Shown here piece after piece: positions 1,471-61,435 of a stretch of 64,000 nt of DNA. The notes beneath the pieces are model-generated. The model saw nothing but the letters and a program-made list of their open reading frames with translations, had not been told where the DNA came from and did no database searches. The position numbers and the translations under genes are program-made. Position 1 is the first letter of the stretch; every line of letters begins with the position of its first letter. Source of the DNA: Epilithonimonas lactis (lineage in GTDB: Bacteria > Bacteroidota > Bacteroidia > Flavobacteriales > Weeksellaceae); contig NZ_FOFI01000001.1 of assembly GCF_900110605.1 (NCBI RefSeq), forward strand, positions 620,001 through 684,000. The letters are read 5' to 3'.

Positions 1471-3804
1471 ATGATGGAAAAAAACACAAATAACACTTCA
1501 GATTTTGATATTAATTCGTTGATAAAGCCGTACCTCACAAGATGGTATTGGTTTCTTATCAGCATTGTATTGGCTGTAATTTTGGGCCTTTTGTTTATTA
1601 AAACGTCCGTGCCAGTTTATAACGTGAAAAGTGCAGTCCTTATCAAAGATGCCCAAAAGTCTCTGGGAGCAGGTGTTGATGATATGGGCGTTCTGGGAGG
1701 ACTTTCTGGTTTCGGAGGGATGAGCACCAATAGTATAGAAAATGAGGTTGAGGTTTTTAAAACCAAAAAGCTGGCGCGAGATGTTGCAGCTATCAATCAT
1801 CTTCAGACCTCTGTGTTTTCAAACCAGGAATTCCAGAAGAGAGAACTTTTTGGCGATACTTCTCCGATTATTATTCATGTGATCAATGAGAAGAAGAACA
1901 AAGATTTTCCTACGGAGTCTTTCTTGATCAGTTTTGAAAAAAACAAGGTAAGTTTGAGATCGGAAGAATTTAACTTTGATCAAAATGTTGAATATGGCAG
2001 GTCGATAAGTCTTCCTTTTGCTAATATAATCATCACAAAGAACGCAGCTTTTGATAAGGAAAAAGCAGGGAAGATCGGGGATGAGTTGGAAATTGATTTT
2101 GCGCCTTTGGAGTCTGCAGCATCAAACATTCAAAAAATGGTGCAGGTGGATCTTGCGGATAAGGATGCAACTGTGATCAATCTTAATATCGATCATCCAC
2201 AAACGGACAAGGCTAAGGCCATATTGAGATCATTGGTCGATTCTTATAATAAGGATGCCATCGTGGACAAGAATTCTGAATCTCACAAGACAAAAGAATT
2301 CATCGACGAAAGAATTGGTAAAATATCTGTGGAACTCGGAAATGTAGAGTCAGAAAAAGAAAGATTCAAAACCGAGCACAAGATCACAGACCTAATGACA
2401 GAGGCCAAGATCAACTTGGAAAGCTCTGCAGATGCAAAAAAGAAACAGTTGGAATTGGATGCCCAGCTAGAACTTAATAATAACTTGATAAATTATCTTA
2501 GCAAGCAAAATACATATCAGCTGTTACCTGTCAATATAGGACTGGATAATCAGGAATCTAATGCCAGTATTGCCAATTATAATAAAATGGTGATGGATAG
2601 AAACAGGTTGTTGGAAAATGCTACACCACAGAATCCACTGGTCCAAGAGATCACGCAGCAGATCAATTCTATGAAGCGATCGGTTTCGGAATCTTTAAAT
2701 AAAAATAAAGTAGCTTTGCAGCTTGCTTTAAACGAATACCAATCTGAGCAAAATAAGATAGGGTCAAGGATTACAAAGATCCCTTTTCAAGAAAAGCTGT
2801 TCAGAAGTTTGGAAAGACAACAGCAGATCAAGGAAAATCTTTATCTTTTGTTGCTTCAGAAACGTGAGGAGACCGCTATTTCGTTGGCTGTAGTTGCACC
2901 AAAGGCGAGAATCGTAGAACCGGCTTTTGTAGGAGATAAGCCTGTTGCGCCAAAGAAAATGATCATTCTTTTGGCGAGTTTGGTTCTTGGGATCTTATTA
3001 CCTTTTGTGTTTATCTATTTGAAAGAATTGACCAATACGAAGATCACATCCAAGGATGATCTGAAGAGATTGACAAATACACCTGTTGTGGCAGAGATTC
3101 CGTCGGTGAAGAAAAACATTGCGCATGTTATTAAACAAAATGATTTCTCACCACTGGCAGAAGCATTTAGGATTTTAACTACGAATATCGGCTTTATGTT
3201 ACCAAAGATAAATAGTGGTAAGACGATATTTGTGACGTCATCTATCAAAGGAGAAGGTAAGACTTTCGTGTCCATGAATCTGGCATTGTCTCTGTCCCAG
3301 TCTGACAGTGATAAAGTTATAATTATAGGTGCTGATATTAGAAATCCGCAATTGCAAAGATATAACCAAGGGAAAAACCCAGGAAAGGGCTTGACAGAAT
3401 TCCTATATGACAAAAGCACAACTGTAGATGAGATCATTTTCCAAAACCCTAACAATGTCAAGTGTGATATCATCTATTCTGGAACCATTCCGCCAAACCC
3501 AACAGAATTGTTGAAGAATGGAAGACTAGAAGCTTTGTTGGAAGAACTTAAATCAAAATACCAATATATCATTGTGGATACAGCTCCATTGCTATTGGTG
3601 ACAGATACTTTGACCATTATTCAACATGCAGATCTTAAACTTTATGTTACGAGATCCAATTTTACAGACAAGGCATTGATCGACTTCGCTAATGACACGA
3701 TGGAGACCGGTAAATTGGACAATGTAGCTTTTGTGCTGAATGATGTTACAAAAGAAAATTTTGGCTACGGCAACAAGTATGGCTATGGCTATAACAATAA
3801 ATAA
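1471..3804 (+). CDS. Wzc-like polysaccharide co-polymerase / BY-kinase (copy 1)
   Basis: 777 residues. A Wzz-type N-terminal membrane helix lies at about residues 24-47, followed by a long periplasmic part with coiled coil, a second helix near residues 500-520 (MIILLASLVLGILLPFVFIY) and a cytoplasmic bacterial tyrosine kinase domain. Visible motifs are Walker A GEGKT (594-598), Walker A' IIIGADIRNPQ and Walker B IIVDTAPLLLV. The first Asp of the classical Walker A' (hhhDxDxR) is Gly here, while the second Asp and Arg remain. The tail is tyrosine-rich (NFGYGNKYGYGYNNK), the expected autophosphorylation cluster. A second Met lies one codon after the annotated start. It controls polymer length and export with the Wza-like protein. 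No Wzb-type phosphatase gene is seen in the window. Confidence 0.93.
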   Translation: MMEKNTNNTSDFDINSLIKPYLTRWYWFLISIVLAVILGLLFIKTSVPVYNVKSAVLIKDAQKSLGAGVDDMGVLGGLSGFGGMSTNSIENEVEVFKTKKLARDVAAINHLQTSVFSNQEFQKRELFGDTSPIIIHVINEKKNKDFPTESFLISFEKNKVSLRSEEFNFDQNVEYGRSISLPFANIIITKNAAFDKEKAGKIGDELEIDFAPLESAASNIQKMVQVDLADKDATVINLNIDHPQTDKAKAILRSLVDSYNKDAIVDKNSESHKTKEFIDERIGKISVELGNVESEKERFKTEHKITDLMTEAKINLESSADAKKKQLELDAQLELNNNLINYLSKQNTYQLLPVNIGLDNQESNASIANYNKMVMDRNRLLENATPQNPLVQEITQQINSMKRSVSESLNKNKVALQLALNEYQSEQNKIGSRITKIPFQEKLFRSLERQQQIKENLYLLLLQKREETAISLAVVAPKARIVEPAFVGDKPVAPKKMIILLASLVLGILLPFVFIYLKELTNTKITSKDDLKRLTNTPVVAEIPSVKKNIAHVIKQNDFSPLAEAFRILTTNIGFMLPKINSGKTIFVTSSIKGEGKTFVSMNLALSLSQSDSDKVIIIGADIRNPQLQRYNQGKNPGKGLTEFLYDKSTTVDEIIFQNPNNVKCDIIYSGTIPPNPTELLKNGRLEALLEELKSKYQYIIVDTAPLLLVTDTLTIIQHADLKLYVTRSNFTDKALIDFANDTMETGKLDNVAFVLNDVTKENFGYGNKYGYGYNNK

Positions 3805-3812
3805 TTACTTTA

Positions 3813-6167
3813 ATGGACGTAACGAGGAAAGAAGATGAATTTAATTTAAGAGAACTAATAAAACCCTATATCAAGAAGTGGTACTGGTTTTTCATATCTG
3901 TGATAATTACCTTAGCCCTTGCTATACTATATATTAAGTACACGACGCCGATCTACATGGCGCAATCTTCTGTTTTGATCAAAGATGCTAAAAAAATGTC
4001 CAATGCATCTGGTGATTTTGGTGTTTTATCTGGCTTAGGTGGATTTGCCGGTATGGGAACCAATAGCATCGAAAATGAATTGGAAATCTTCAAATCAAAA
4101 AAAATAATAGAAGATGTCACCAAAAATCTTAAATTACAAGTCTCTATCTTCTCTCGTGAAAAATACCACGATGTGGAGCTCTACAAGGATACTAATCCTT
4201 TCAACGTTTTAGTCGTAAATGAAAAAGAAGACGAAGCACTTCCAACCAAACCGATCAATATAAAAATTGAAGGACAGAAGATCACCTTGTCTTCAGAAGA
4301 ATTGAAAAAGGACATCATCACGACGTTTGATAAAACGGTAAGCTTGCCTTATGCTAATTTTATCATCACCAAAAATCAAAATTACAAACCAAAAAAGGTA
4401 AAAAAACTAAGTCTTAATGATATCTATTTTACCTACAGCGATTTTGTAGGTACCGTAAATGGCTACCAAGAATCTGTAGATGTTGGTTTGGTGGACAAAG
4501 ATGCGACTGTTATCGGTCTTTCTATGGCACATGCCAACAAAGATAAGTCTAAAGACATTTTGAACAATCTTGTCGATATTTATAATGAATATGCGATCAA
4601 CGACAAAAACACAGAATCAAAGAAAACAAAAGATTTCATAGATGAAAGAATTGTTTTGATCTCTAAAGAATTGGGTGATGTAGAGAGTGATAAGGAGCGA
4701 TTCAAACTGGATAATGATATCATCGATATCCCGTCCGAGGCCAAACTGAATATGGGGATCTACAACGAGACGAGAAGAAGAGGCATCGAATTGGAAACCC
4801 AGATAGAAGTCAGCAGAATGCTTCTGTCGTACATCGATAATCAAACCTCTACATTTCAAATTTTGCCAACGAACGTTGGGCTGGATAATCCTTCTGCAAC
4901 ATCCAACATTACCGCCTATAACAAATTGGTGATGGATAGAAATCGACTCTTGGAAAATGCGACGCCCGAAAATCCTTTGGTGAAAGAGGTTTCTAAAGAT
5001 TTGATAGGACTTCGTGTTGCTATGCGAGAAAGTCTTCAACAATTCATTACCAACTTAATTTCTACAAAAAATCTAAATGAAAGAGAAAATTACAGAAGTG
5101 ATAACGAGGTAAAAAAGGTTCCAGGACAAGAGAAACTTTTTAGAAACATAGAACGTCAACAGCAGATCAAAGAAAACCTGTACCTGCTACTATTGCAAAA
5201 GAGAGAAGAAGCTGCAATCTCTATGGCGATGTCAGACAACAAGGCAAGAGTTGTAGACCATGCGTATATCATGAAAAATCAGGTCGCACCCAAAAAAATG
5301 ATCTCGTTGCTTGCAGCTCTGGTTATAGGGTCGCTGATACCTTTCTTGTTTATCTATATCAAAGAATTGTTGAATAATAAGTTGATAAGCAAGCATGATC
5401 TGGAAAAACTTACAACAACGCCGATACTTTCAGAAATACCGAGATTATACAAAAGAGATGGTGAGATTATTAAAAACAATGATGTATCCCCGTTGGCAGA
5501 ATCGTTCAGGATCTTGGTCACCAATTTGAATTTTATGCTACCAAAGGATCGTTCTGCAAAAACTGTTTTTGTGACATCCACGATCAAGGGAGAAGGTAAA
5601 ACATTTGTGTCCGTCAATCTAGCTCTTGCACTTGCGAGTGCCACCAAAAAAGTCTTGGTGATTGGTTCCGACATTAGAAACCCACAACTGCAAAGATATA
5701 ATCCGGCAATGAAAAATGTCAAAGGACTATCTGAATATCTTTATGAAGAGATTGAAAACGCAAAAGAGATCATCCACCCAAGCGGTTATCATCCGAATTG
5801 TGATTTTATATACTCTGGCGTCATACCGCCTAATCCTACAGACCTGTTGCAGAACGGACGTTACTCGCAATTGATAGATTCTGTAAAGGACGATTATCAT
5901 TTCATTATTCTGGATACAGCACCGTTGATGCTGGTAACAGATTCCTTCCTGATCTCAGATACTGCAGATGCTACAGTATATGTCACGAGATCGGAGGTTA
6001 CACAAAAAGATTTTATTAATTTTGCCAATAACAATATTGATGCTGCGAAGATCAAGAATGTAGGTTTCGTGCTCAACGATGTTCATAAGAATAATTTTGG
6101 CTATGGTAATAAATATGGTTATGGCTACCAGGCTGAAGAAAAAAAATGGTGGCAAAAAATTTTGTAG
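3813..6167 (+). CDS. Wzc-like polysaccharide co-polymerase / BY-kinase (copy 2)
   Basis: 784 residues, a full-length paralogue of the gene just upstream, separated by 8 bases. Domain order is the same: N-terminal helix near 24-45, periplasmic coiled-coil part, helix near 503-523, kinase domain with Walker A GEGKT (593-597), Walker A' VIGSDIRNPQ and Walker B IILDTAPLMLV. The tyrosine cluster (NFGYGNKYGYGYQ) is almost the same as in copy 1, but here it is followed by a basic/aromatic extension, EEKKWWQKIL. Both copies keep the ATP-binding lysine, so neither looks like a dead kinase. Two complete co-polymerases in one cluster suggest either division of labour or recent tandem duplication with divergence. 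Confidence 0.92.
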   Translation: MDVTRKEDEFNLRELIKPYIKKWYWFFISVIITLALAILYIKYTTPIYMAQSSVLIKDAKKMSNASGDFGVLSGLGGFAGMGTNSIENELEIFKSKKIIEDVTKNLKLQVSIFSREKYHDVELYKDTNPFNVLVVNEKEDEALPTKPINIKIEGQKITLSSEELKKDIITTFDKTVSLPYANFIITKNQNYKPKKVKKLSLNDIYFTYSDFVGTVNGYQESVDVGLVDKDATVIGLSMAHANKDKSKDILNNLVDIYNEYAINDKNTESKKTKDFIDERIVLISKELGDVESDKERFKLDNDIIDIPSEAKLNMGIYNETRRRGIELETQIEVSRMLLSYIDNQTSTFQILPTNVGLDNPSATSNITAYNKLVMDRNRLLENATPENPLVKEVSKDLIGLRVAMRESLQQFITNLISTKNLNERENYRSDNEVKKVPGQEKLFRNIERQQQIKENLYLLLLQKREEAAISMAMSDNKARVVDHAYIMKNQVAPKKMISLLAALVIGSLIPFLFIYIKELLNNKLISKHDLEKLTTTPILSEIPRLYKRDGEIIKNNDVSPLAESFRILVTNLNFMLPKDRSAKTVFVTSTIKGEGKTFVSVNLALALASATKKVLVIGSDIRNPQLQRYNPAMKNVKGLSEYLYEEIENAKEIIHPSGYHPNCDFIYSGVIPPNPTDLLQNGRYSQLIDSVKDDYHFIILDTAPLMLVTDSFLISDTADATVYVTRSEVTQKDFINFANNNIDAAKIKNVGFVLNDVHKNNFGYGNKYGYGYQAEEKKWWQKIL

Positions 6168-6192: not shown

Positions 6193-7215
6193 ATGTTTAA
6201 GGATAAAACACTTTTAATTACAGGAGGTACAGGCTCTTTTGGAAACGCAATGTTGAAAGGTTTTCTTAATTCCGACCTAAAGGAAATAAAGATCTTTTCC
6301 CGTGATGAGAAAAAACAGGAAGACATGCGGATCGAATATAAAAATGACAAATTAAATTTTGTGATTGGAGATATTCGAGATTTTAATAGTATTAATGCAG
6401 CAATGAACGGCGTAGACTTTGTGTTCCATGCTGCGGCATTGAAGCAAGTCCCTTCTTGTGAATTTTATCCGATGCAGGCAGTGCAAACCAATATCTTGGG
6501 TGCAGAAAACGTATTAGAAGCTGCTGCTAGAAATAATGTACAAAGAGTGGTCGTCCTAAGTACAGACAAAGCGGTCTATCCGATCAATGCGATGGGAATT
6601 TCCAAAGCGATGATGGAAAAGATGGCAGTTGCAAAGGCCAGAGACCGAAGAGTGGAAAACGCAAATGCAATTTACACAGCCACTAGATATGGTAACGTGA
6701 TGTGTTCCCGTGGATCTATCATTCCTCTTTTTATCAAACAAATTAAAGAAGGAAAACCTTTGACAATCACGAACCCGGAAATGACACGTTTCATGATGTC
6801 ATTGGACGATTCTGTAGAGTTGGTGATGTTTGCATTCAAAAATGGTAAGCCAGGTGATATTTTCGTGCAGAAATCCCCAGGTGCCACGATCCATGTGCTT
6901 GCTCAAGCGCTGAAGGAATTATTCAATGCTGACAACGAGATCAATATCATTGGTGAAAGACATGCAGAAAAAATGTACGAAACTTTGTGTTCTAAAGAAG
7001 AGATGTCCAAAGCAGAAGACTTGGGTAGATTCTACAGAGTTCCTGCAGATTTCAGAGATTTGAACTACACCAATTATGTTCAGAAAGACGGTCCGAAATT
7101 AATAGATCAAGAGTACAATTCTGACAACACAGAGAGATTGAACGTTGAGGAATTGAAAGAACTTCTTCTTACTCTAGATTACGTACAAGACGAATTAGCC
7201 ACTCACAACAAATAA
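6193..7215 (+). CDS. UDP-GlcNAc 4,6-dehydratase, CapE/WbjB/FnlA type
   Basis: 340 residues, soluble extended SDR. It has the Rossmann glycine motif TGGTGSFG (10-17) and a STDK segment (123-126). The catalytic position M134-G-I-S-K138 has Met where most SDR enzymes have Tyr. The Met-Lys form (SMK) is known for CapE and its relatives; PseB keeps Tyr, so a pseudaminic-acid dehydratase is less likely. The C-terminal region (YNSDNTERLNVEELKELL) also fits the CapE/FnlA group. The product would be a UDP-4-keto-6-deoxy HexNAc, possibly C5-inverted. The usual L-FucNAc partners (CapF/CapG) are not next to it; two DegT proteins are, so the keto sugar is probably aminated at C4. Confidence 0.88.
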   Translation: MFKDKTLLITGGTGSFGNAMLKGFLNSDLKEIKIFSRDEKKQEDMRIEYKNDKLNFVIGDIRDFNSINAAMNGVDFVFHAAALKQVPSCEFYPMQAVQTNILGAENVLEAAARNNVQRVVVLSTDKAVYPINAMGISKAMMEKMAVAKARDRRVENANAIYTATRYGNVMCSRGSIIPLFIKQIKEGKPLTITNPEMTRFMMSLDDSVELVMFAFKNGKPGDIFVQKSPGATIHVLAQALKELFNADNEINIIGERHAEKMYETLCSKEEMSKAEDLGRFYRVPADFRDLNYTNYVQKDGPKLIDQEYNSDNTERLNVEELKELLLTLDYVQDELATHNK

Positions 7216-7221
7216 TAAAAC

Positions 7222-8310
7222 ATGCTACCATTAGTACAGACTTCCATTCCGCCAAGAGAAATTTTGATGCCGAAATTGGAAGCAATTTTATACAGCGGCT
7301 ACGTTGCACAAGGTGAAGCAGTAGAAGAGTTTGAAAGAAAATTTGAGGAATACATTGGAGGTGGTCACACGCTTTCACTTAATTCTGGGACAGCAGCTTT
7401 GCACATCGCATTGATACTTGCTGGTGTAAAAGAAGGTGATGAGGTGATCAGTACCGCTTTAACAGCAGAGCCTACAAATACTTCTATCAAAGCAGTTGGA
7501 GCAAAAATTAGATATGCAGATGTGGATCCAGAAACCGGAAATATTTCTCCGGATGCAATCGAAAAATCTATCAATCCCAAGACAAAGGCGATCATCGTAG
7601 TAGATTACGCTGGGATTCCTGTCGATATCCAACGCATTCAGGAGATTTCTGAGAAATATAATATTCCCGTAATTCAGGATGCTGCGCACGCTTTGGGTTC
7701 CAAATTCAATGGTAAAAAAGCAGGAAACCATTTCCCGTTTACAGTCTATTCTTTCCAGGCGATTAAGCATTTAACTACTATTGATGGTGGTGCTTTGCAG
7801 ATCCAGGACAAAGAATTGTATGAAAAAGGAAAAGTGATCCGCTGGTTCGGTTTGGATAAAAAACTGAGCCGAATGGATAATAATATTACCATCCAAGGTT
7901 ACAAATACCACATGAACAATGTGAATGCTACGGTAGGATTGGTACAATTAGAAAATATCGAGGAGCTTGTACAAAAGTACATTACCAACGGAAAATATTT
8001 AGATGAGCAACTAAAAGGTGTTGATGGTGTAGAACTGATCCAGTACTATCCAAACACAGAACCTTCGTACTGGCTTTACACCATCAAAGTGGAAAACAGG
8101 GAGGCTTTCATCAAAAAAATGGCTGACAATGGAATCATGGCTTCCGAACTTCACAAGAGAAGTGATTCTCACACCTATTTGAATGATTTTAGTTTAGAAT
8201 TACCAAACCTGGACGAATTCTACAGCAAAATGGTGCATCTTCCTTGTGGATGGTGGGTGACCAAAGCGGACTGCGACAAGATGGTAGAAATCATAAAAGG
8301 CGGTTGGTAA
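7222..8310 (+). CDS. DegT/DnrJ/EryC1/StrS sugar aminotransferase (intact)
   Basis: 362 residues. PLP-dependent fold-type I sugar aminotransferase. The phosphate-binding S55-G56-T57, the ring-nitrogen Asp D153 with stacking H156 (QDAAHALG) and the Schiff-base lysine K182 (SFQAIKHLTTIDGG) are all present. It starts 6 bases after the dehydratase stop, so the two are translated together. The expected reaction is glutamate-dependent amination of the 4-keto sugar made by the upstream enzyme, giving a UDP-4-amino-4,6-dideoxy-HexNAc. Stereochemistry cannot be read from sequence. PseC is a related alternative, but no other pse genes are nearby. Confidence 0.9.
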   Translation: MLPLVQTSIPPREILMPKLEAILYSGYVAQGEAVEEFERKFEEYIGGGHTLSLNSGTAALHIALILAGVKEGDEVISTALTAEPTNTSIKAVGAKIRYADVDPETGNISPDAIEKSINPKTKAIIVVDYAGIPVDIQRIQEISEKYNIPVIQDAAHALGSKFNGKKAGNHFPFTVYSFQAIKHLTTIDGGALQIQDKELYEKGKVIRWFGLDKKLSRMDNNITIQGYKYHMNNVNATVGLVQLENIEELVQKYITNGKYLDEQLKGVDGVELIQYYPNTEPSYWLYTIKVENREAFIKKMADNGIMASELHKRSDSHTYLNDFSLELPNLDEFYSKMVHLPCGWWVTKADCDKMVEIIKGGW

Positions 8311-9371
8311 TGGTCTCTATTTACAAACCCTTCATGCCGGAGAACATTACGGAAGGCATTAACGAGATTTTATATTCAGGGCAGTTGGCCTATGGAAAAT
8401 ATGGTAGGGAGTTTGAAAAAACTCTCTCTCAGTTTATTGGCAATCCAGATGTTCTGACCGCTGCCACATACAATCAGGCACTGTTGATGGTTTTGTCGAT
8501 TCTAGATTTGAAACCTGGCGACGAGATTATTGCAAGTCCTGTAAGTTGTCTTGCCAGTAATCAACCATTTGCCGTGAAAAATCTTCGCGTAAAATGGATC
8601 GACGTAGACCCGGAAACCAGTGCAATGGATGTTTCACAGCTGAGATCACTCATCACAAAAGATACAAAAGCTATCTTCAACAATCTTTTTTGTGGCTATG
8701 CCGGAGAACTGGATGAAGTTTATAAGATCGGAAAAGAATTTGGAATTCCTGTAGTAGACGATTGTATAGAAGCTTTCGGGACAGAATATAAAGGAAAGAA
8801 GACAGGAAATACCGGCGCCGATATGACGGTATTCTCATTTCAGACCGTGCGTTTGCCGAACACTATTGATGGTGGTGCCATCGCTTTTAATAATAAAGCC
8901 TTCTTTGAAAAAGCAAAGCTGGTAAGAGATTACGGTATCGAAAGAGCCAATTTTCGTCTGCAAAACGGCGAGATCAATCCCAATTGTGACATTTCTATCG
9001 AGGGATATGGTGCGACAATGAGCGAGATCAATTCGTACATTGGAATGAAACAGATGGAGGAAATAGAAGTTTTGTTTGCTAAGCAAAAAGCCAATGCCGA
9101 AAAATGGAATTCTTTTTTTGAAGACCACGCGGACGCAAAAACTCTGAAAATTAATAAAAATGTCAACCCAAACTATTGGGTCTATGGCGTTTTGGCAGAA
9201 AACAAAACCGAGTTCCTGCAGCAGATGAAGGATAAAGGCTTCTATGCGACCGGCGTGCATATCAACAATAACATTTATTCTGTTTTTCAGAATGACAAAG
9301 ATCTTCCGGGCGTGAACGAGTTTATGAAAAAATATGTGGCAATACCATCTGGCTGGTGGGTAAATTTATAA
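8310..9371 (+). CDS. DegT-family aminotransferase homologue lacking the PLP lysine
   Basis: 353 residues. The start is taken at the ATG that overlaps the previous stop (TAATG); an upstream in-frame ATG would lie inside the preceding gene. It is clearly homologous to its neighbour over the whole length (ILYSG near the start, VDPET, GKKTGN, TIDGGA, SGWW at the end). However, the residue aligned with the catalytic lysine is R181 (SFQTVRLPNTIDGG, codon CGT). The phosphate-binding SGT is T53-Y54-N55, and the His/Gln that stacks on PLP is E154, although D151 is kept. It ends right after the GWW motif, without the last helix of its neighbour. It is probably not a normal aminotransferase: a pseudoenzyme subunit, or an enzyme with altered chemistry (ColD-type dehydratases use His at this position). 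Confidence 0.88.
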   Translation: MVSIYKPFMPENITEGINEILYSGQLAYGKYGREFEKTLSQFIGNPDVLTAATYNQALLMVLSILDLKPGDEIIASPVSCLASNQPFAVKNLRVKWIDVDPETSAMDVSQLRSLITKDTKAIFNNLFCGYAGELDEVYKIGKEFGIPVVDDCIEAFGTEYKGKKTGNTGADMTVFSFQTVRLPNTIDGGAIAFNNKAFFEKAKLVRDYGIERANFRLQNGEINPNCDISIEGYGATMSEINSYIGMKQMEEIEVLFAKQKANAEKWNSFFEDHADAKTLKINKNVNPNYWVYGVLAENKTEFLQQMKDKGFYATGVHINNNIYSVFQNDKDLPGVNEFMKKYVAIPSGWWVNL

Positions 9372-9376
9372 TTGAA

Positions 9377-9880
9377 ATGAAATTTACAACGACACTTATA
9401 AAGCATTCTGACATCTCCGAGGAACAACTGACGGAGATCTGTAAGCTCAAAGCAATACGCTGGGATTACACGTTGGATCAGCACAAAAAATGGATGATCG
9501 AGAATATCCAGGCCAATGATTTCCATATTCTAATAAACGATGGTGAGAAACCGATTGCCTACACCAATTTAGTCGACATCACTGCAATCATCAACGATGA
9601 AAATGTGCAAGTTAGAGGAATAGGAAATGTCTGTACTTCAGAAACTGGAAAGGGTTTTGGAAATGTTTTGATGAAAGAAGTGAATACCGTATTGACGCAA
9701 AACCAATGGAAAGGCATTTTGCTTTGTAAAGACCACCTTGTTCTCTATTACGAAAAATTTGGGTGGAAACTAATTGATAAACATTCGGTACAAGCCGAAA
9801 AGTATAATGAGATCAATTTCATGATCTATGATTTCCCTCAAGTGGTAGTATCGTTGACATATAATGATAGGAATTTCTAA
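9377..9880 (+). CDS. GNAT family N-acetyltransferase
   Basis: 167 residues from the ATG at 9377, 5 bases after the preceding stop; an earlier in-frame ATG at 9356 would overlap the upstream gene. The acetyl-CoA-binding motif is visible as RGIGNVCTSETGKGFGNVLM (residues 79-98), and motif B as LYYEKFGWKLI. Placed after a dehydratase and an aminotransferase, the most economical role is N-acetylation of the new amino group on the nucleotide sugar. GNAT substrates cannot be read from sequence, so this is inferred from context. Confidence 0.82.
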   Translation: MKFTTTLIKHSDISEEQLTEICKLKAIRWDYTLDQHKKWMIENIQANDFHILINDGEKPIAYTNLVDITAIINDENVQVRGIGNVCTSETGKGFGNVLMKEVNTVLTQNQWKGILLCKDHLVLYYEKFGWKLIDKHSVQAEKYNEINFMIYDFPQVVVSLTYNDRNF

Positions 9881-13602: not shown

Positions 13603-14392
13603 CTTGGTCAGCGTCATTGTTCCTTTGTACAATGCGCAAGATTCGATTGTACTTAGTTTACGATCTGTATTGGAACAGACCTATACCAATTGGGAAGTTG
13701 TCATCGTAAATGATGGCTCTACAGACGACAGCAAACAGATCGTAGAAAATTTCATCAATTCCCAAAACGATGAGATCAGATCAAGGTTTAGTTTGTTCGA
13801 TCAGCCCAATGCTGGCCCATCACGAACCAGAAACAGAGCGATCGATCTGGCAAAAGGAACTTATATTGCATTCCTGGATTCCGATGATGTCTGGATCCCA
13901 AGCAAGTTGCAAGAGCAGCTTGATCTGGCACTTCAGTATCCAGAGGTTTCTATCATCGCAGGCGCCTTTTATCATGAGGTGGAGGAGAATGTGCCTTACT
14001 TTGAAAAGATCACATTTGACCAATTGTTGTTCAAGAACTATTTCGCGACGCCTATGGTTTTTATCAAAAAAGAATACCTTTTGGAGATGGATCACTTTTT
14101 TGACGATAACAAAAGATACGGCGAAGATTATGATCTTTGGTTAAGGTTGTTACAGAAACGGGATGCTATTTTCATTAATAAGATCCTCGGAAAAAACGCT
14201 TTTGGAAAAGCTAACTTTGGACAAAGCGGATTGTCTGCCCATCTTTTCGCCATGCAAAAAGGGGAAATATCCACGTATAAAGATCTTTATCATGCAAAAG
14301 CGCTTGGTTTTGGTAAGTTGGTAAAAGTTTTATTATTTTCATATCTCAAATTTTTTAGAAGATTATGCTTAGTTTATTTAAAACGAAAATAG
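13580..14392 (+). CDS. Glycosyltransferase family 2
   Basis: 270 residues. Typical GT2: VSVIVPLYNAQDSI at the N-terminus, EVVIVNDGSTDDS, GPSRTRNRAIDLAKGTYIAF and the metal-binding FLDSDDVW near residues 95-102, then a GEDYDLWLRLL segment carrying the catalytic acidic residues. It overlaps the polymerase gene by 23 bases and the beta-helix gene downstream by 28 bases. A basic C-terminus may attach it to the membrane. Confidence 0.9.
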   Translation: MSFIGKDNLVSVIVPLYNAQDSIVLSLRSVLEQTYTNWEVVIVNDGSTDDSKQIVENFINSQNDEIRSRFSLFDQPNAGPSRTRNRAIDLAKGTYIAFLDSDDVWIPSKLQEQLDLALQYPEVSIIAGAFYHEVEENVPYFEKITFDQLLFKNYFATPMVFIKKEYLLEMDHFFDDNKRYGEDYDLWLRLLQKRDAIFINKILGKNAFGKANFGQSGLSAHLFAMQKGEISTYKDLYHAKALGFGKLVKVLLFSYLKFFRRLCLVYLKRK

Positions 14393-15603
14393 GTTCCGTA
14401 CTACTCGTCATTACAATCGTATTTGTGAACTGCACCTCATTACCAACATCTATAAAGGTGGCGGCTAAAGATGATACACAATTTCTTCAAAACAAGATCA
14501 ATACTCTTGGGAATAATGGTGTTTTGGATGGAGGAAATAAAACATACTACGTTACAGCATTATGGTTGAAAAGTAATATGACGATACAAAATATGAAGCT
14601 GGTGTCCATTCCCACTTCTATTTCAGATGTAAGTGTCATCAATGTTGGAAATGATCTGGAGACAAACACATTCAACAAATCCTCGGTCGCAAGAACAAGT
14701 ATTGAAACATCGCGTAACAATGGAGGTTTTAAAAATATAACCATCAAGAATATATCCATAGATGGCAACCGCTCTCTTCAGAAAAAATTGGCTGTTGAAG
14801 ATAGGGATGGAGGAAAACATGGAATAGCGGTCAAAGGTTTTGCAACAAATATTACGATTGTAGATGTTAATATTAAAAACTGTGCAACAGATGGTATTTC
14901 GCTATATAGGGGATTGCACACCAACTTAGATTCTGGTAAAGAGATCTTCGCCATCAGAAATGTTACCCTAAGAAATGTGACATGCACCAACAACAGAAGA
15001 CATGGCGGTTCTGGAGAATCAATCGATGGATTGATCATGGAGAATTGCAGATTCAATAGCAATGGATTGACCATCAATGGAGGAAAGCAGGAGGGCGACA
15101 TAGGTGCTATATACAATGGTAACCTCTATGGCAATGGTTGGGATATGGAAGGCTACGGGCTTGGGTCAGGGATGAGAAATATCAAAATTTCAAATACAGA
15201 ATTCCTTAAAAATATGGGAGGAGGCATCGTCTTCTACGATATTACAGATAGCAGAAACAACAAGTTCATAAATCGTGGAAACATTACGCTTGATAATTGT
15301 AAAATAGATGCTGGCGTCAAAAATCCTACTGGATACTTCTCTTTGGTCTTCAGTAGCACAATTGAAAATAAAAAGAACAAGACCAAATTGTTTTCCAATA
15401 TCAATATCCTCAACTGTACTCTGTATGGAAAATTATTATTGAGGTCGGTAGCGAATATCAATATTAGCAATACAAAGATTATCAAAGGCAATGAGCGTTT
15501 TGACGGCCTTTTGGACAATGTAAGCAACCTTATGAATGGACGGGCGGACGCCGTGCAAAGTGGCTCATTCTCTTGGGACAACTATGATTACAGCAAAAAA
15601 TAG
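14365..15603 (+). CDS. Secreted right-handed beta-helix (pectate-lyase-like) protein
   Basis: 412 residues. A hydrophobic N-terminus (residues 10-22) ends in VNC, a weak lipobox, so it may be a lipoprotein; a plain signal peptide is the alternative. After that, short beta-strand repeats rich in Asn, Gly, Ile and Val (for example NITIKN-, ITIVDVNIKNC-, IRNVTLRNVTC-type rungs) fit a right-handed parallel beta-helix, as in pectate lyases and GH28 enzymes. No catalytic residues can be assigned by eye. It sits inside a glycosyltransferase run and overlaps the upstream GT2 gene by 28 bases, so it is part of the operon and may trim, modify or bind the exported polymer. Confidence 0.8.
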   Translation: MLSLFKTKIGSVLLVITIVFVNCTSLPTSIKVAAKDDTQFLQNKINTLGNNGVLDGGNKTYYVTALWLKSNMTIQNMKLVSIPTSISDVSVINVGNDLETNTFNKSSVARTSIETSRNNGGFKNITIKNISIDGNRSLQKKLAVEDRDGGKHGIAVKGFATNITIVDVNIKNCATDGISLYRGLHTNLDSGKEIFAIRNVTLRNVTCTNNRRHGGSGESIDGLIMENCRFNSNGLTINGGKQEGDIGAIYNGNLYGNGWDMEGYGLGSGMRNIKISNTEFLKNMGGGIVFYDITDSRNNKFINRGNITLDNCKIDAGVKNPTGYFSLVFSSTIENKKNKTKLFSNINILNCTLYGKLLLRSVANINISNTKIIKGNERFDGLLDNVSNLMNGRADAVQSGSFSWDNYDYSKK

Positions 15604-59515: not shown

Positions 59516-60358
59516 TTACCCAAAAACCTCAAAATCCACCCCATCAAAACTTGCGAAAACCATCGTAGGATAAGAATCCTGATGGAACACATTTCCCTCA
59601 GAATCAATTCCAATGGCGCCCGCAAAACCGTCAATTTCTTTCAACTCTTCAAAAGTTCTGTCGAAGGCATTTTCTATCGTCAGTCCGTCTGTCACTCGCG
59701 TAACGATTTTTGCCGAGGTCGCATTGCTCACAATGTCTTCGCCAACACCAGTACAGCTTACCGCACAAAATTGGTTGGCATAATTGCCGGCAACCGTCGC
59801 AGAATCTGAGATTCTTCCCGGGATTTCAAAACCTTTTCCACCAGTAGAAGTAGCAACAGCTAATTTTCCATGTTTATCCAGAGCAACTGCGCCAACGGTT
59901 CCTTTTCCGCCGGTTTTCAGTTTTTCTTCGTATTCTTTTCTTCGCTGTGGGATTTCGGTTGAGAAATCTCCAAAACCATTTTCATTGGCGTATTTTTTCG
60001 CACCATTTCCGCCGAGAACGCGGTCGTCTTCTTTCATCAATTCCTTAGCCACAAAGATTGGATTCTTCACATTCTGGATATTGATGACGCCGCTCATCTT
60101 CTGCGTTTCTCCATCCATGATTGCCGCGCTCATTCTGATGATTCCGTCACTTTGGATCTGAGAACCAATGCCAGCGTTGTAAAGATCATCGTCTTCCAAC
60201 AGTGAAACGGCATAAGCAACGGTATCAAAAGCCGAATTGTTTTGTAGGAAATCGTAGGACTTTTTCGCAATGGCTTTCAGAGAATCTTGCTTGGCAACTT
60301 TCACTTCATGGCTTTGGTTGCTTTCGGAAAAGAATCCGCCGTGGATGATTATTTTCAT
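59516..60358 (-). CDS. iaaA: Isoaspartyl peptidase / L-asparaginase (Ntn-hydrolase)
   Basis: 280 residues, plant-type asparaginase family. The precursor is cleaved before the nucleophile T154 (KTGGKGTVGAVAL), which starts the beta chain. Other conserved parts are NAGIGSQIQSDGIIRMSAAIMDG, VAVATSTGG-type KLAVATSTGGKGFEIPGRISDSATVAGNY and CTGVGEDI. It hydrolyses beta-Asp-Xaa dipeptides. Beside a cyanophycinase, its likely substrate is the beta-Asp-Arg dipeptide released from cyanophycin. It is shorter at the N-terminus than E. coli IaaA. Confidence 0.9.
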   Translation of the reverse strand: MKIIIHGGFFSESNQSHEVKVAKQDSLKAIAKKSYDFLQNNSAFDTVAYAVSLLEDDDLYNAGIGSQIQSDGIIRMSAAIMDGETQKMSGVINIQNVKNPIFVAKELMKEDDRVLGGNGAKKYANENGFGDFSTEIPQRRKEYEEKLKTGGKGTVGAVALDKHGKLAVATSTGGKGFEIPGRISDSATVAGNYANQFCAVSCTGVGEDIVSNATSAKIVTRVTDGLTIENAFDRTFEELKEIDGFAGAIGIDSEGNVFHQDSYPTMVFASFDGVDFEVFG

Positions 60359-60512: not shown

Positions 60513-61421
60513 TTAATCGCTCGTATAATTACTCGGAATCACCTGCGGAATCGGGTTGTACTGTGAATTCACAATCGTCATTTCTCTGGATTTCAAATCA
60601 AAAGTATCATTCATAGAAAGGACGTCCACAACCAAGTTTTTAATGGAAATTGGTTGTCCGAGGTCAATATTGGTCAAGTTGGTATCTTTGATTTGAAGTC
60701 CATCCACAATGATGACCAGACCAGAACCGATCGCGGTCATTGTATCATCCTCGATAAATAAACCTGTATCTTCACCAAGACCAATTCCTAATGTTCTCGG
60801 ATTGTTGACAACGGCCTGAAACAATCTTCCAATTCGTCCTCGCTGCACGAAATGCGTATCGATGATCACATTTTCTATAAATCCAAGACCTTGCGTGGTT
60901 TTGATCTCGCCTTTCAACAAGGCTTCAGAACTGGAACCTTGGTAGATCATATTTTCAGAAGCGGCAGCAGCACCGGCAGAGGTTCCCGCGTAGATGAAAT
61001 CTTCGGTCTGATATTTTGTTAAGATCGCATCGTGGAATCGCGTTCCACCAAGAATTGAGGTCAAGCGCAACTGGTCGCCGCCAGTGAACATCACAACATC
61101 AGCTGCGTTGGCTCTTGCAACGATGGCGTCACTATTCGCCTGTTCACGGTTTTGGATGTCTAGGATGTTACAGTTTTTAATGCCAAGATACTCGAACGCC
61201 TTTTTATATTCTGGTCCCACAATGTCTGGGATCTGAGAAGCTGTAGTAATCACTTCGATGACAGAATCTTCTTTGTTTTTAGATTCATCGATGATCTTTC
61301 TGAGGATTCCTCGTTCAAAAAAGTTGAGGTTTTTTTCGACGTTTTGGTCAAAACTGGTCTCTGTAAAACTACCTTTGTTTACAGCGCCTCCAATGATGAC
61401 TAGTTTTCCTTTTGATTTCAT
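60513..61421 (-). CDS. cphB: Cyanophycinase
   Basis: 302 residues from ATG 61421 (MKSKGKLVIIGGAVNKGSF); an upstream TTG frame start is not needed. S51-type peptidase: VVMFTGGDQLRLTSILGGT and the nucleophile S148 in YAGTSAGAAAAS, then GLGFIENVIIDTHFVQRGRIGRL with the catalytic His region and GIGLGEDTGLFIEDD. It cuts cyanophycin (multi-L-arginyl-poly-L-aspartate) into beta-Asp-Arg dipeptides. The adjacent iaaA completes breakdown, and cphA opposite makes the polymer. Confidence 0.93.
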   Translation of the reverse strand: MKSKGKLVIIGGAVNKGSFTETSFDQNVEKNLNFFERGILRKIIDESKNKEDSVIEVITTASQIPDIVGPEYKKAFEYLGIKNCNILDIQNREQANSDAIVARANAADVVMFTGGDQLRLTSILGGTRFHDAILTKYQTEDFIYAGTSAGAAAASENMIYQGSSSEALLKGEIKTTQGLGFIENVIIDTHFVQRGRIGRLFQAVVNNPRTLGIGLGEDTGLFIEDDTMTAIGSGLVIIVDGLQIKDTNLTNIDLGQPISIKNLVVDVLSMNDTFDLKSREMTIVNSQYNPIPQVIPSNYTSD

Positions 61422-61427
61422 AGTTAA

Positions 61428-61435
61428 CAAAAATA
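61428..61435 (-). promoter_or_regulatory. -7 box TATTTTTG of cphB, start codon at the predicted +1
   Basis: The minus strand reads TATTTTTG followed by six bases and the ATG at 61421, so the message is probably leaderless. No clear -33. Confidence 0.5.

Follow-up and report, generated by a model that had tools for sequence, protein, structure and literature searches.

Sugar aminotransferases of the DegT family are treated as homodimers and are assigned their function on the strength of the family match; we know of no lysine-less partner gene for PseC, ArnB or Spr1654 and of no need for a paralogue in CalS13 or AtmS13. PseC acts after a dehydratase of the PseB/CapE type, while the dehydratases ColD and E1 have the DegT fold with a histidine in place of the lysine and bind PLP or PMP. 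CalS13 and AtmS13 (PDB 4zas, 4zwv, 4xau) transfer amino groups to sugars in pathways of the calicheamicin and AT2433 type. Spr1654 is described as a homodimer (PMC5936713). Fold-type I systems that combine a lysine-bearing subunit with a homologous lysine-less one belong to other families than DegT, and include the LCB1/LCB2 pair of serine palmitoyltransferase (PMC3794620) and the alpha and beta halves of glycine decarboxylase (PMC7259800). In those enzymes the complex is established, whereas for the gene pair described here we infer it. Among the matches listed from the open-licence literature, no report of a lysine-less DegT partner was found.

The window, by which we mean the whole 64,000-nucleotide stretch analysed (620001-684000 of contig 7 in the 4.09 Mb genome of Epilithonimonas lactis, phylum Bacteroidota), contains four co-directional genes at 6193-9880 within a polysaccharide locus: a CapE/FnlA-type gene, two DegT paralogues that we call A and B, and a GNAT-like gene. 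The features needed below are as follows.

6193..7215, + strand: CapE/FnlA-type UDP-GlcNAc 4,6-dehydratase (5-epimerase); PF02719, 335 bits; FnlA model 513 bits and PseB model 310 bits, both below the curated cut-offs
7222..8310, + strand: A, predicted Lys-bearing DegT/CalS13-type sugar aminotransferase, 362 aa; PF01041, 299.5 bits
7765..7767, + strand: K182 codon (AAG) of A, PLP Schiff-base lysine position by alignment with ArnB K188
7849..7896, + strand: cross-dimer loop of A, 16 residues, G210-Q225; 16 aa in 21/21 paired A
8308..8312, + strand: TAATG junction, overlap of the A stop and the B start
8310..9371, + strand: B, Lys-less DegT paralogue with Arg at the PLP-lysine position, 353 aa; PF01041, 194.7 bits
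8850..8852, + strand: R181 codon (CGT) of B, replacing the Schiff-base lysine
8934..9002, + strand: cross-dimer loop of B, 23 residues, G209-E231, with FR and a GEI insertion absent from A; 23 aa in 20/20 B
9377..9880, + strand: GNAT-like acyltransferase; PF13527, 21.5 bits, below the cut-off of 25

A sequence-only reading of this DNA had described A and B as tightly coupled tandem DegT paralogues, preceded by a CapE-type gene, of which the second has lost the PLP lysine, and each element of that description was borne out. The two proteins are 30% identical (BLASTP, E 1e-64) and both exceed the PF01041 cut-off of 19.8 bits in a Pfam profile search; the membership of B in the DegT family, to which the UDP-sugar 4-aminotransferases PseC, ArnB and Spr1654 also belong, is further supported by the DegT fold in a single-chain structure prediction. 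The best PDB sequence matches of A are AtmS13 and CalS13, which carry the lysine as A does, in contrast to the arginine of B. Alignment of A with ArnB, numbered by hand along the alignment, equates K182 with K188, D153 with D160 and H156 with H163. The active-site residues of A (S55-G56-T57, D153, H156, S177 and K182) correspond in B to T53-Y54-N55, D151, E154, S176 and R181, with the stretch from the serine to the Lys/Arg position ungapped in the pairwise alignment of A and B. As had also been noted, B ends just past its GWW, in GWWVNL, three residues beyond the motif.

We collected B homologues from family, phylum and order genome samples, which overlap, together with one MAG contig. These sources gave 18 close B proteins including that of the window (B1), and two distant ones (B2) come from genome G635 and from the alphaproteobacterial Sphingomonadaceae plasmid CP099620. 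Arginine occupies the PLP-lysine position in 18/18 B1 and 2/2 B2 proteins. By comparison, a background set of 90 further DegT proteins, drawn from 31 genomes in the phylum (matches with E up to 1e-40, 94 rows, of which window A, window B and two partial matches were left out), has lysine in 89 cases, histidine in one and arginine in none. An alternative Schiff-base lysine elsewhere in B was considered and rejected, as none of the lysines of B is shared by all 20 proteins and only the K6 and K120 columns reach 90%. The sequence-only reading had also allowed that orthologues might restore the lysine and so expose B as one decaying copy, and 0 of the 20 B proteins do so. An oddity confined to the window was likewise rejected, since B homologues occur in family, phylum and order genomes and on a plasmid.

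The pairing of the two genes is equally constant. B lies directly 3' of a Lys-bearing A in all 20 loci, at gaps of -4 to +6 bp, and no B apart from A was found among them; K182, D153 and H156 are present in all 21 paired A proteins, the additional A being that of G783, which stops 29 bases short of the locus end, so that its B is not judgeable. (L009 and L010, whose contigs match G178:C12 and G198:C2 in length, were treated as repeats and entered the counts once.) B was found in 13 of 246 family genomes, and the A query, run on a sample of the same size with the same genomes listed, returned the same 13. In the phylum sample B occurs in 5 of 395 genomes, and a close A (E below 1e-180) occurs in the same five; the lysine is also present in the three A-like proteins that rank next (E 1.6e-103 to 1.2e-89), with no DegT neighbour in their 1.5 kb flanks. 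In the order sample 11 of 395 genomes match, one with A only, at a locus end, and one with a distant B. These searches scored the best 5 or 8 candidates per genome, with E cut-offs between 1e-30 and 1e-85, and can therefore miss weak copies of A or B; the genome samples all come from the phylum of the window, which sets the limit of the reported host range. A tblastn search of plasmids with B had as its best match, of 903 matching records, the A-B pair of CP099620. The corresponding phage search gave 76 matching records, with lysine in the two examined (H20 and H16), and a viral-contig scan with B gave four weak relatives, all with lysine; further distant pairs may be present among the other plasmid and phage matches. 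Within the genus of the window, the family, phylum and order samples gave no B match beyond the window genome, while other genera of the family do match, and the cassette is thus patchy and probably transferred.

In a tree of 49 proteins the paired A proteins form one clade (support 0.97), as do B1 (1.0) and, under a midpoint root, B1 together with B2 (0.71). The first split of the A clade and that of the B clade separate the same two groups, which suggests that the pairing probably predates its spread between phyla. Taken alone, the trees of A and B are correlated (r 0.58, Mantel p 0.0001, 18 pairs). Comparison with CapE over 18 pairs gave 0.54 for A-B, 0.54 for A-CapE and 0.66 for B-CapE, with an A-B correlation given CapE of 0.30, falling to 0.21 in the 13 loci in which CapE is adjacent. 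Because the A-B value is no higher than those with CapE and its partial value is only 0.30, the tree correlation is no evidence of contact here.

In homologous DegT dimers one region reaches into the active site of the partner subunit. In a model of Spr1654 with UDP-sugar (PMC5936713), the mobile region 235-248, Tyr249* and Gln234* reach the ligand from the other subunit, and the uracil touches Gly28*/Ile30* of that subunit; in the crystal structure of Pcryo_0638 the UDP is contacted by Tyr229 and Lys215 of subunit B (PMC8040287). We placed the loop on Spr1654 by sequence offset rather than superposition. In B the loop runs between two conserved glycines, G209 and G232, and has 23 residues in 20/20 proteins, with F215, R216, E221 and I222 invariant. 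As a reference we used 69 non-redundant, Lys-bearing unpaired relatives (61 from a viral scan, 5 phage/viral and 3 genomic), which are not phylogenetically independent and for which "unpaired" means that the flanks examined, some of them ended by contig ends, hold no Arg-bearing DegT gene. Their loops measure 19 (42 proteins), 20 (15), 22 (7) or 26 residues (2), with one each of 18, 21 and 30, so that 0 of 69 has the length found in A or in B; the loop of CalS13 and AtmS13, counted by eye, has 18. An FR motif is present in the loop of 41/69 unpaired relatives, 0/21 A and 20/20 B. Compared with most unpaired relatives, therefore, the A loop is shorter, by 3-4 residues from the usual length, and has no FR, whereas the B loop is longer, with FR fixed and GEI added. 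Such a pattern would be expected of a B loop that contributes to a site common to both proteins.

The residues that follow the loop point the other way. K228 and Y229 are present in 21/21 A proteins and their counterparts in 0/20 B. They lie in the segment that in homologues works across the dimer, and their equivalence to the trans tyrosine of Spr1654 and Pcryo_0638 is our own mapping. The unpaired relatives have Lys at the K228 position in 69/69 and Tyr at the Y229 position in 67/69 (Phe in two), counts that hold partly by construction, as the viral scan took 80 of 204 relatives partly through the pattern G[YF]KY[HA]MN, which contains these residues; the eight relatives found without the pattern have Lys in 8/8, Tyr in six and Phe in two. 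As A keeps both residues, the active site of an ordinary A homodimer could be complete with no contribution from B, which argues against a heteromeric enzyme.

On balance, we assign a probability of about 50% to the reading, based on sequence comparison, that A and B form a heteromeric aminotransferase acting on the 4-keto sugar of the CapE-type enzyme, with B as a cofactor-free pseudo-subunit. The two proteins would be halves of one amino-sugar step of a surface-polysaccharide locus: CapE would make UDP-4-keto-6-deoxy-HexNAc, and A would transaminate this product with PLP on K182. B, in which no aldimine is possible and the SGT phosphate-binding motif is lost, would join A in a complex, for which an A-B heterodimer is the most likely form and A2B2 a possible one. 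Its long conserved loop (FR...GEI...D) would lie at the shared interface and hold or shield the labile keto sugar or set the specificity, and the adjacent acyl- or formyltransferase would then N-acylate the product. By analogy, B may work like the lysine-less subunits of serine palmitoyltransferase and glycine decarboxylase. Two observations put this reading ahead of the others: A and B did not occur separately in any locus found, and the cross-dimer loops of the two proteins diverge in opposite directions from those of the unpaired relatives. A Lys-less paralogue is encoded with a Lys-bearing one in 20/20 loci and in 13/13 family-sample genomes that have the pair, which stays intact in 20/20 loci while the genes before and after it vary.

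If this is correct, reconstitution of the amino-sugar step may require both gene products, and the A-B pair would offer a bacterial test case for PLP enzymes becoming pseudo-subunits. B is a conserved Lys-to-Arg branch that accompanied its Lys-bearing twin wherever it was found, so that the annotation "DegT/DnrJ/EryC1/StrS aminotransferase", which the plasmid B also bears, is probably mistaken for some proteins. The sequence-only reading had offered either a heterodimer partner or an enzyme with new chemistry on the CapE product, and its premises (the arginine, the pair, the coupling and CapE) stand while both of its alternatives survive.

The second of these alternatives is the main rival and a serious one, but we consider it rather unlikely. 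Here B would be an independent, homodimeric and PLP-free enzyme that acts on the same nucleotide sugar either ahead of A or following it and catalyses a different reaction, such as keto-sugar epimerisation or isomerisation, at a new site composed of Arg181, Asp151, Asn184, His317 and the FR/GEI loop. The residues of B that correspond to the PLP-site lining of homologues (C80, S83, D151, S176, R181, N184 and H317) are invariant; C80, D151 and H317 are common to the unpaired relatives, whereas R181 and N184 set B apart from A as well as from those relatives. Such conserved polar residues suit a ligand site of B's own and count against the heteromeric enzyme, as does the retention of the trans K228/Y229 by A and their absence from B, and most of the tree correlation is explained by co-inheritance at the level of the cassette. 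A free-standing B enzyme leaves unexplained why the A loop is also unusual, with 16 residues and no FR, and why B is never seen without A when other steps of the cassette are swapped between loci. More broadly, and tentatively, B may represent a fold-type I scaffold that lost its PLP and was rebuilt, with the conserved pocket kept and remade around the arginine and the cross-dimer FR/GEI loop. The outcome would be a sugar enzyme that works without a cofactor, or else one half of a heteromeric DegT aminotransferase, the first of its kind, to which A contributes the lysine, PLP and the K-Y pair and B the long loop.

A doubtful possibility is that B binds PLP or PMP non-covalently and acts as a dehydratase of the ColD/E1 type with the arginine as base. 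D151 and S176, at the positions of the pyridine-N1 and phosphate contacts, are retained in 20/20 B proteins, and ColD and E1, which like B combine the DegT fold with a replaced lysine, are among the fold matches. Furthermore, non-covalent PLP binding is predicted for the Lys-less half of glycine decarboxylase by the authors of PMC7259800. The remainder of the cofactor site is difficult to reconcile with this proposal. Of the residues that mark a DegT PLP aminotransferase, B keeps the aspartate and lacks the Schiff-base lysine, the SGT motif and the His/Gln at Asp+3. The SGT region reads [TS][YF][NS] in B1 and D[ML]T in B2, so that the glycine is lost in all 20 proteins, to Tyr/Phe in 18/18 B1 and to Met/Leu in 2/2 B2, and the serine has become Asp in B2. 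The His/Gln at Asp+3, which contacts O3', is replaced by Glu in 15 and Asp in three B1 proteins and by Asn and Ala in one B2 protein each. Enzymes of the ColD type have histidine where all 20 B proteins have arginine, and the PDB titles name ColD H188N and E1 H220K; the single His-bearing protein of the DegT control set retains SGS, while B is also without SGT.

The genes around the pair bear on a further explanation, in which B, without catalytic activity, would regulate or bind sugar and work through some other partner, such as CapE or the acyltransferase, instead of dimerising with A. CapE lies immediately upstream of the pair in 13 of 18 B1 loci; the other five have a UDP-sugar 6-dehydrogenase there instead (by clustering, one tested by Pfam), with a CapE homologue of 60-65% identity located on the same contig, 8-13 kb downstream. 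The gene after B encodes an acyl- or formyltransferase in 16 of 18 B1 loci by Pfam or clustering. It is GNAT-like in 11 loci, eight by clustering with the weakly matching protein of the window and three by Pfam, of which only G367 passes a cut-off; hexapeptide-type in four (one by Pfam, three by clustering); and a formyltransferase in one. In one further B1 locus the next protein has no Pfam match and precedes a PglD-like one, and another (G206, L043:10718-13473) has SDR, GNAT and KAS III genes behind B, which suggests that the amino sugar carries a longer acyl group. The sphingomonad plasmid has the order GNAT-A-B-CapE. In G635, a genome 88% complete, no CapE was found, and a formyltransferase-like gene lies downstream of the pair on the opposite strand. 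Formyltransferase-domain genes near an A-B pair (L076:3239-3910 in G635 and L080:10977-11819 in G721) suggest N-formyl versions of the same sugar. The retained fold, the missing catalytic residues and the frequent acyl- or formyltransferase neighbour would all suit a regulator, but we regard this explanation as quite improbable: A is the only invariant neighbour, and the genes after B belong to different families between loci, which makes a conserved B interface with them unlikely.

That B is a decaying duplicate, as its lost catalytic residues might suggest, is scarcely tenable, given arginine in 20/20 proteins, including one on a plasmid of another phylum, and B dN/dS values of 0.033, 0.042 and 0.057 (computable in 3 of 5 comparisons; 0.021-0.077 for A in 5 of 5), which are rough because 6 of 8 dS values exceed 1. 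The conservation of the arginine in 18/18 close and 2/2 distant B proteins makes chance or decay unlikely, and B is a conserved protein, unusual for the DegT family.

Other features of the window were noted in passing. Two adjacent Wzc-like genes of the chain-length/tyrosine-kinase type (1471-3804 and 3813-6167) encode proteins 51% identical over 761 columns; a Wzc-like gene is present in 12 of 13 neighbourhoods (19-20 kb, nine genes on each side) and is doubled only in the window. The same polysaccharide locus encodes a 412 aa protein at 14365-15603 with no Pfam match at 1e-8. Further away, an Asparaginase_2 (isoaspartyl-peptidase-like) gene adjoins a peptidase S51 gene (59516-60358 and 60513-61430, both on the - strand), an arrangement that presumably resembles a cyanophycin-degradation pair.
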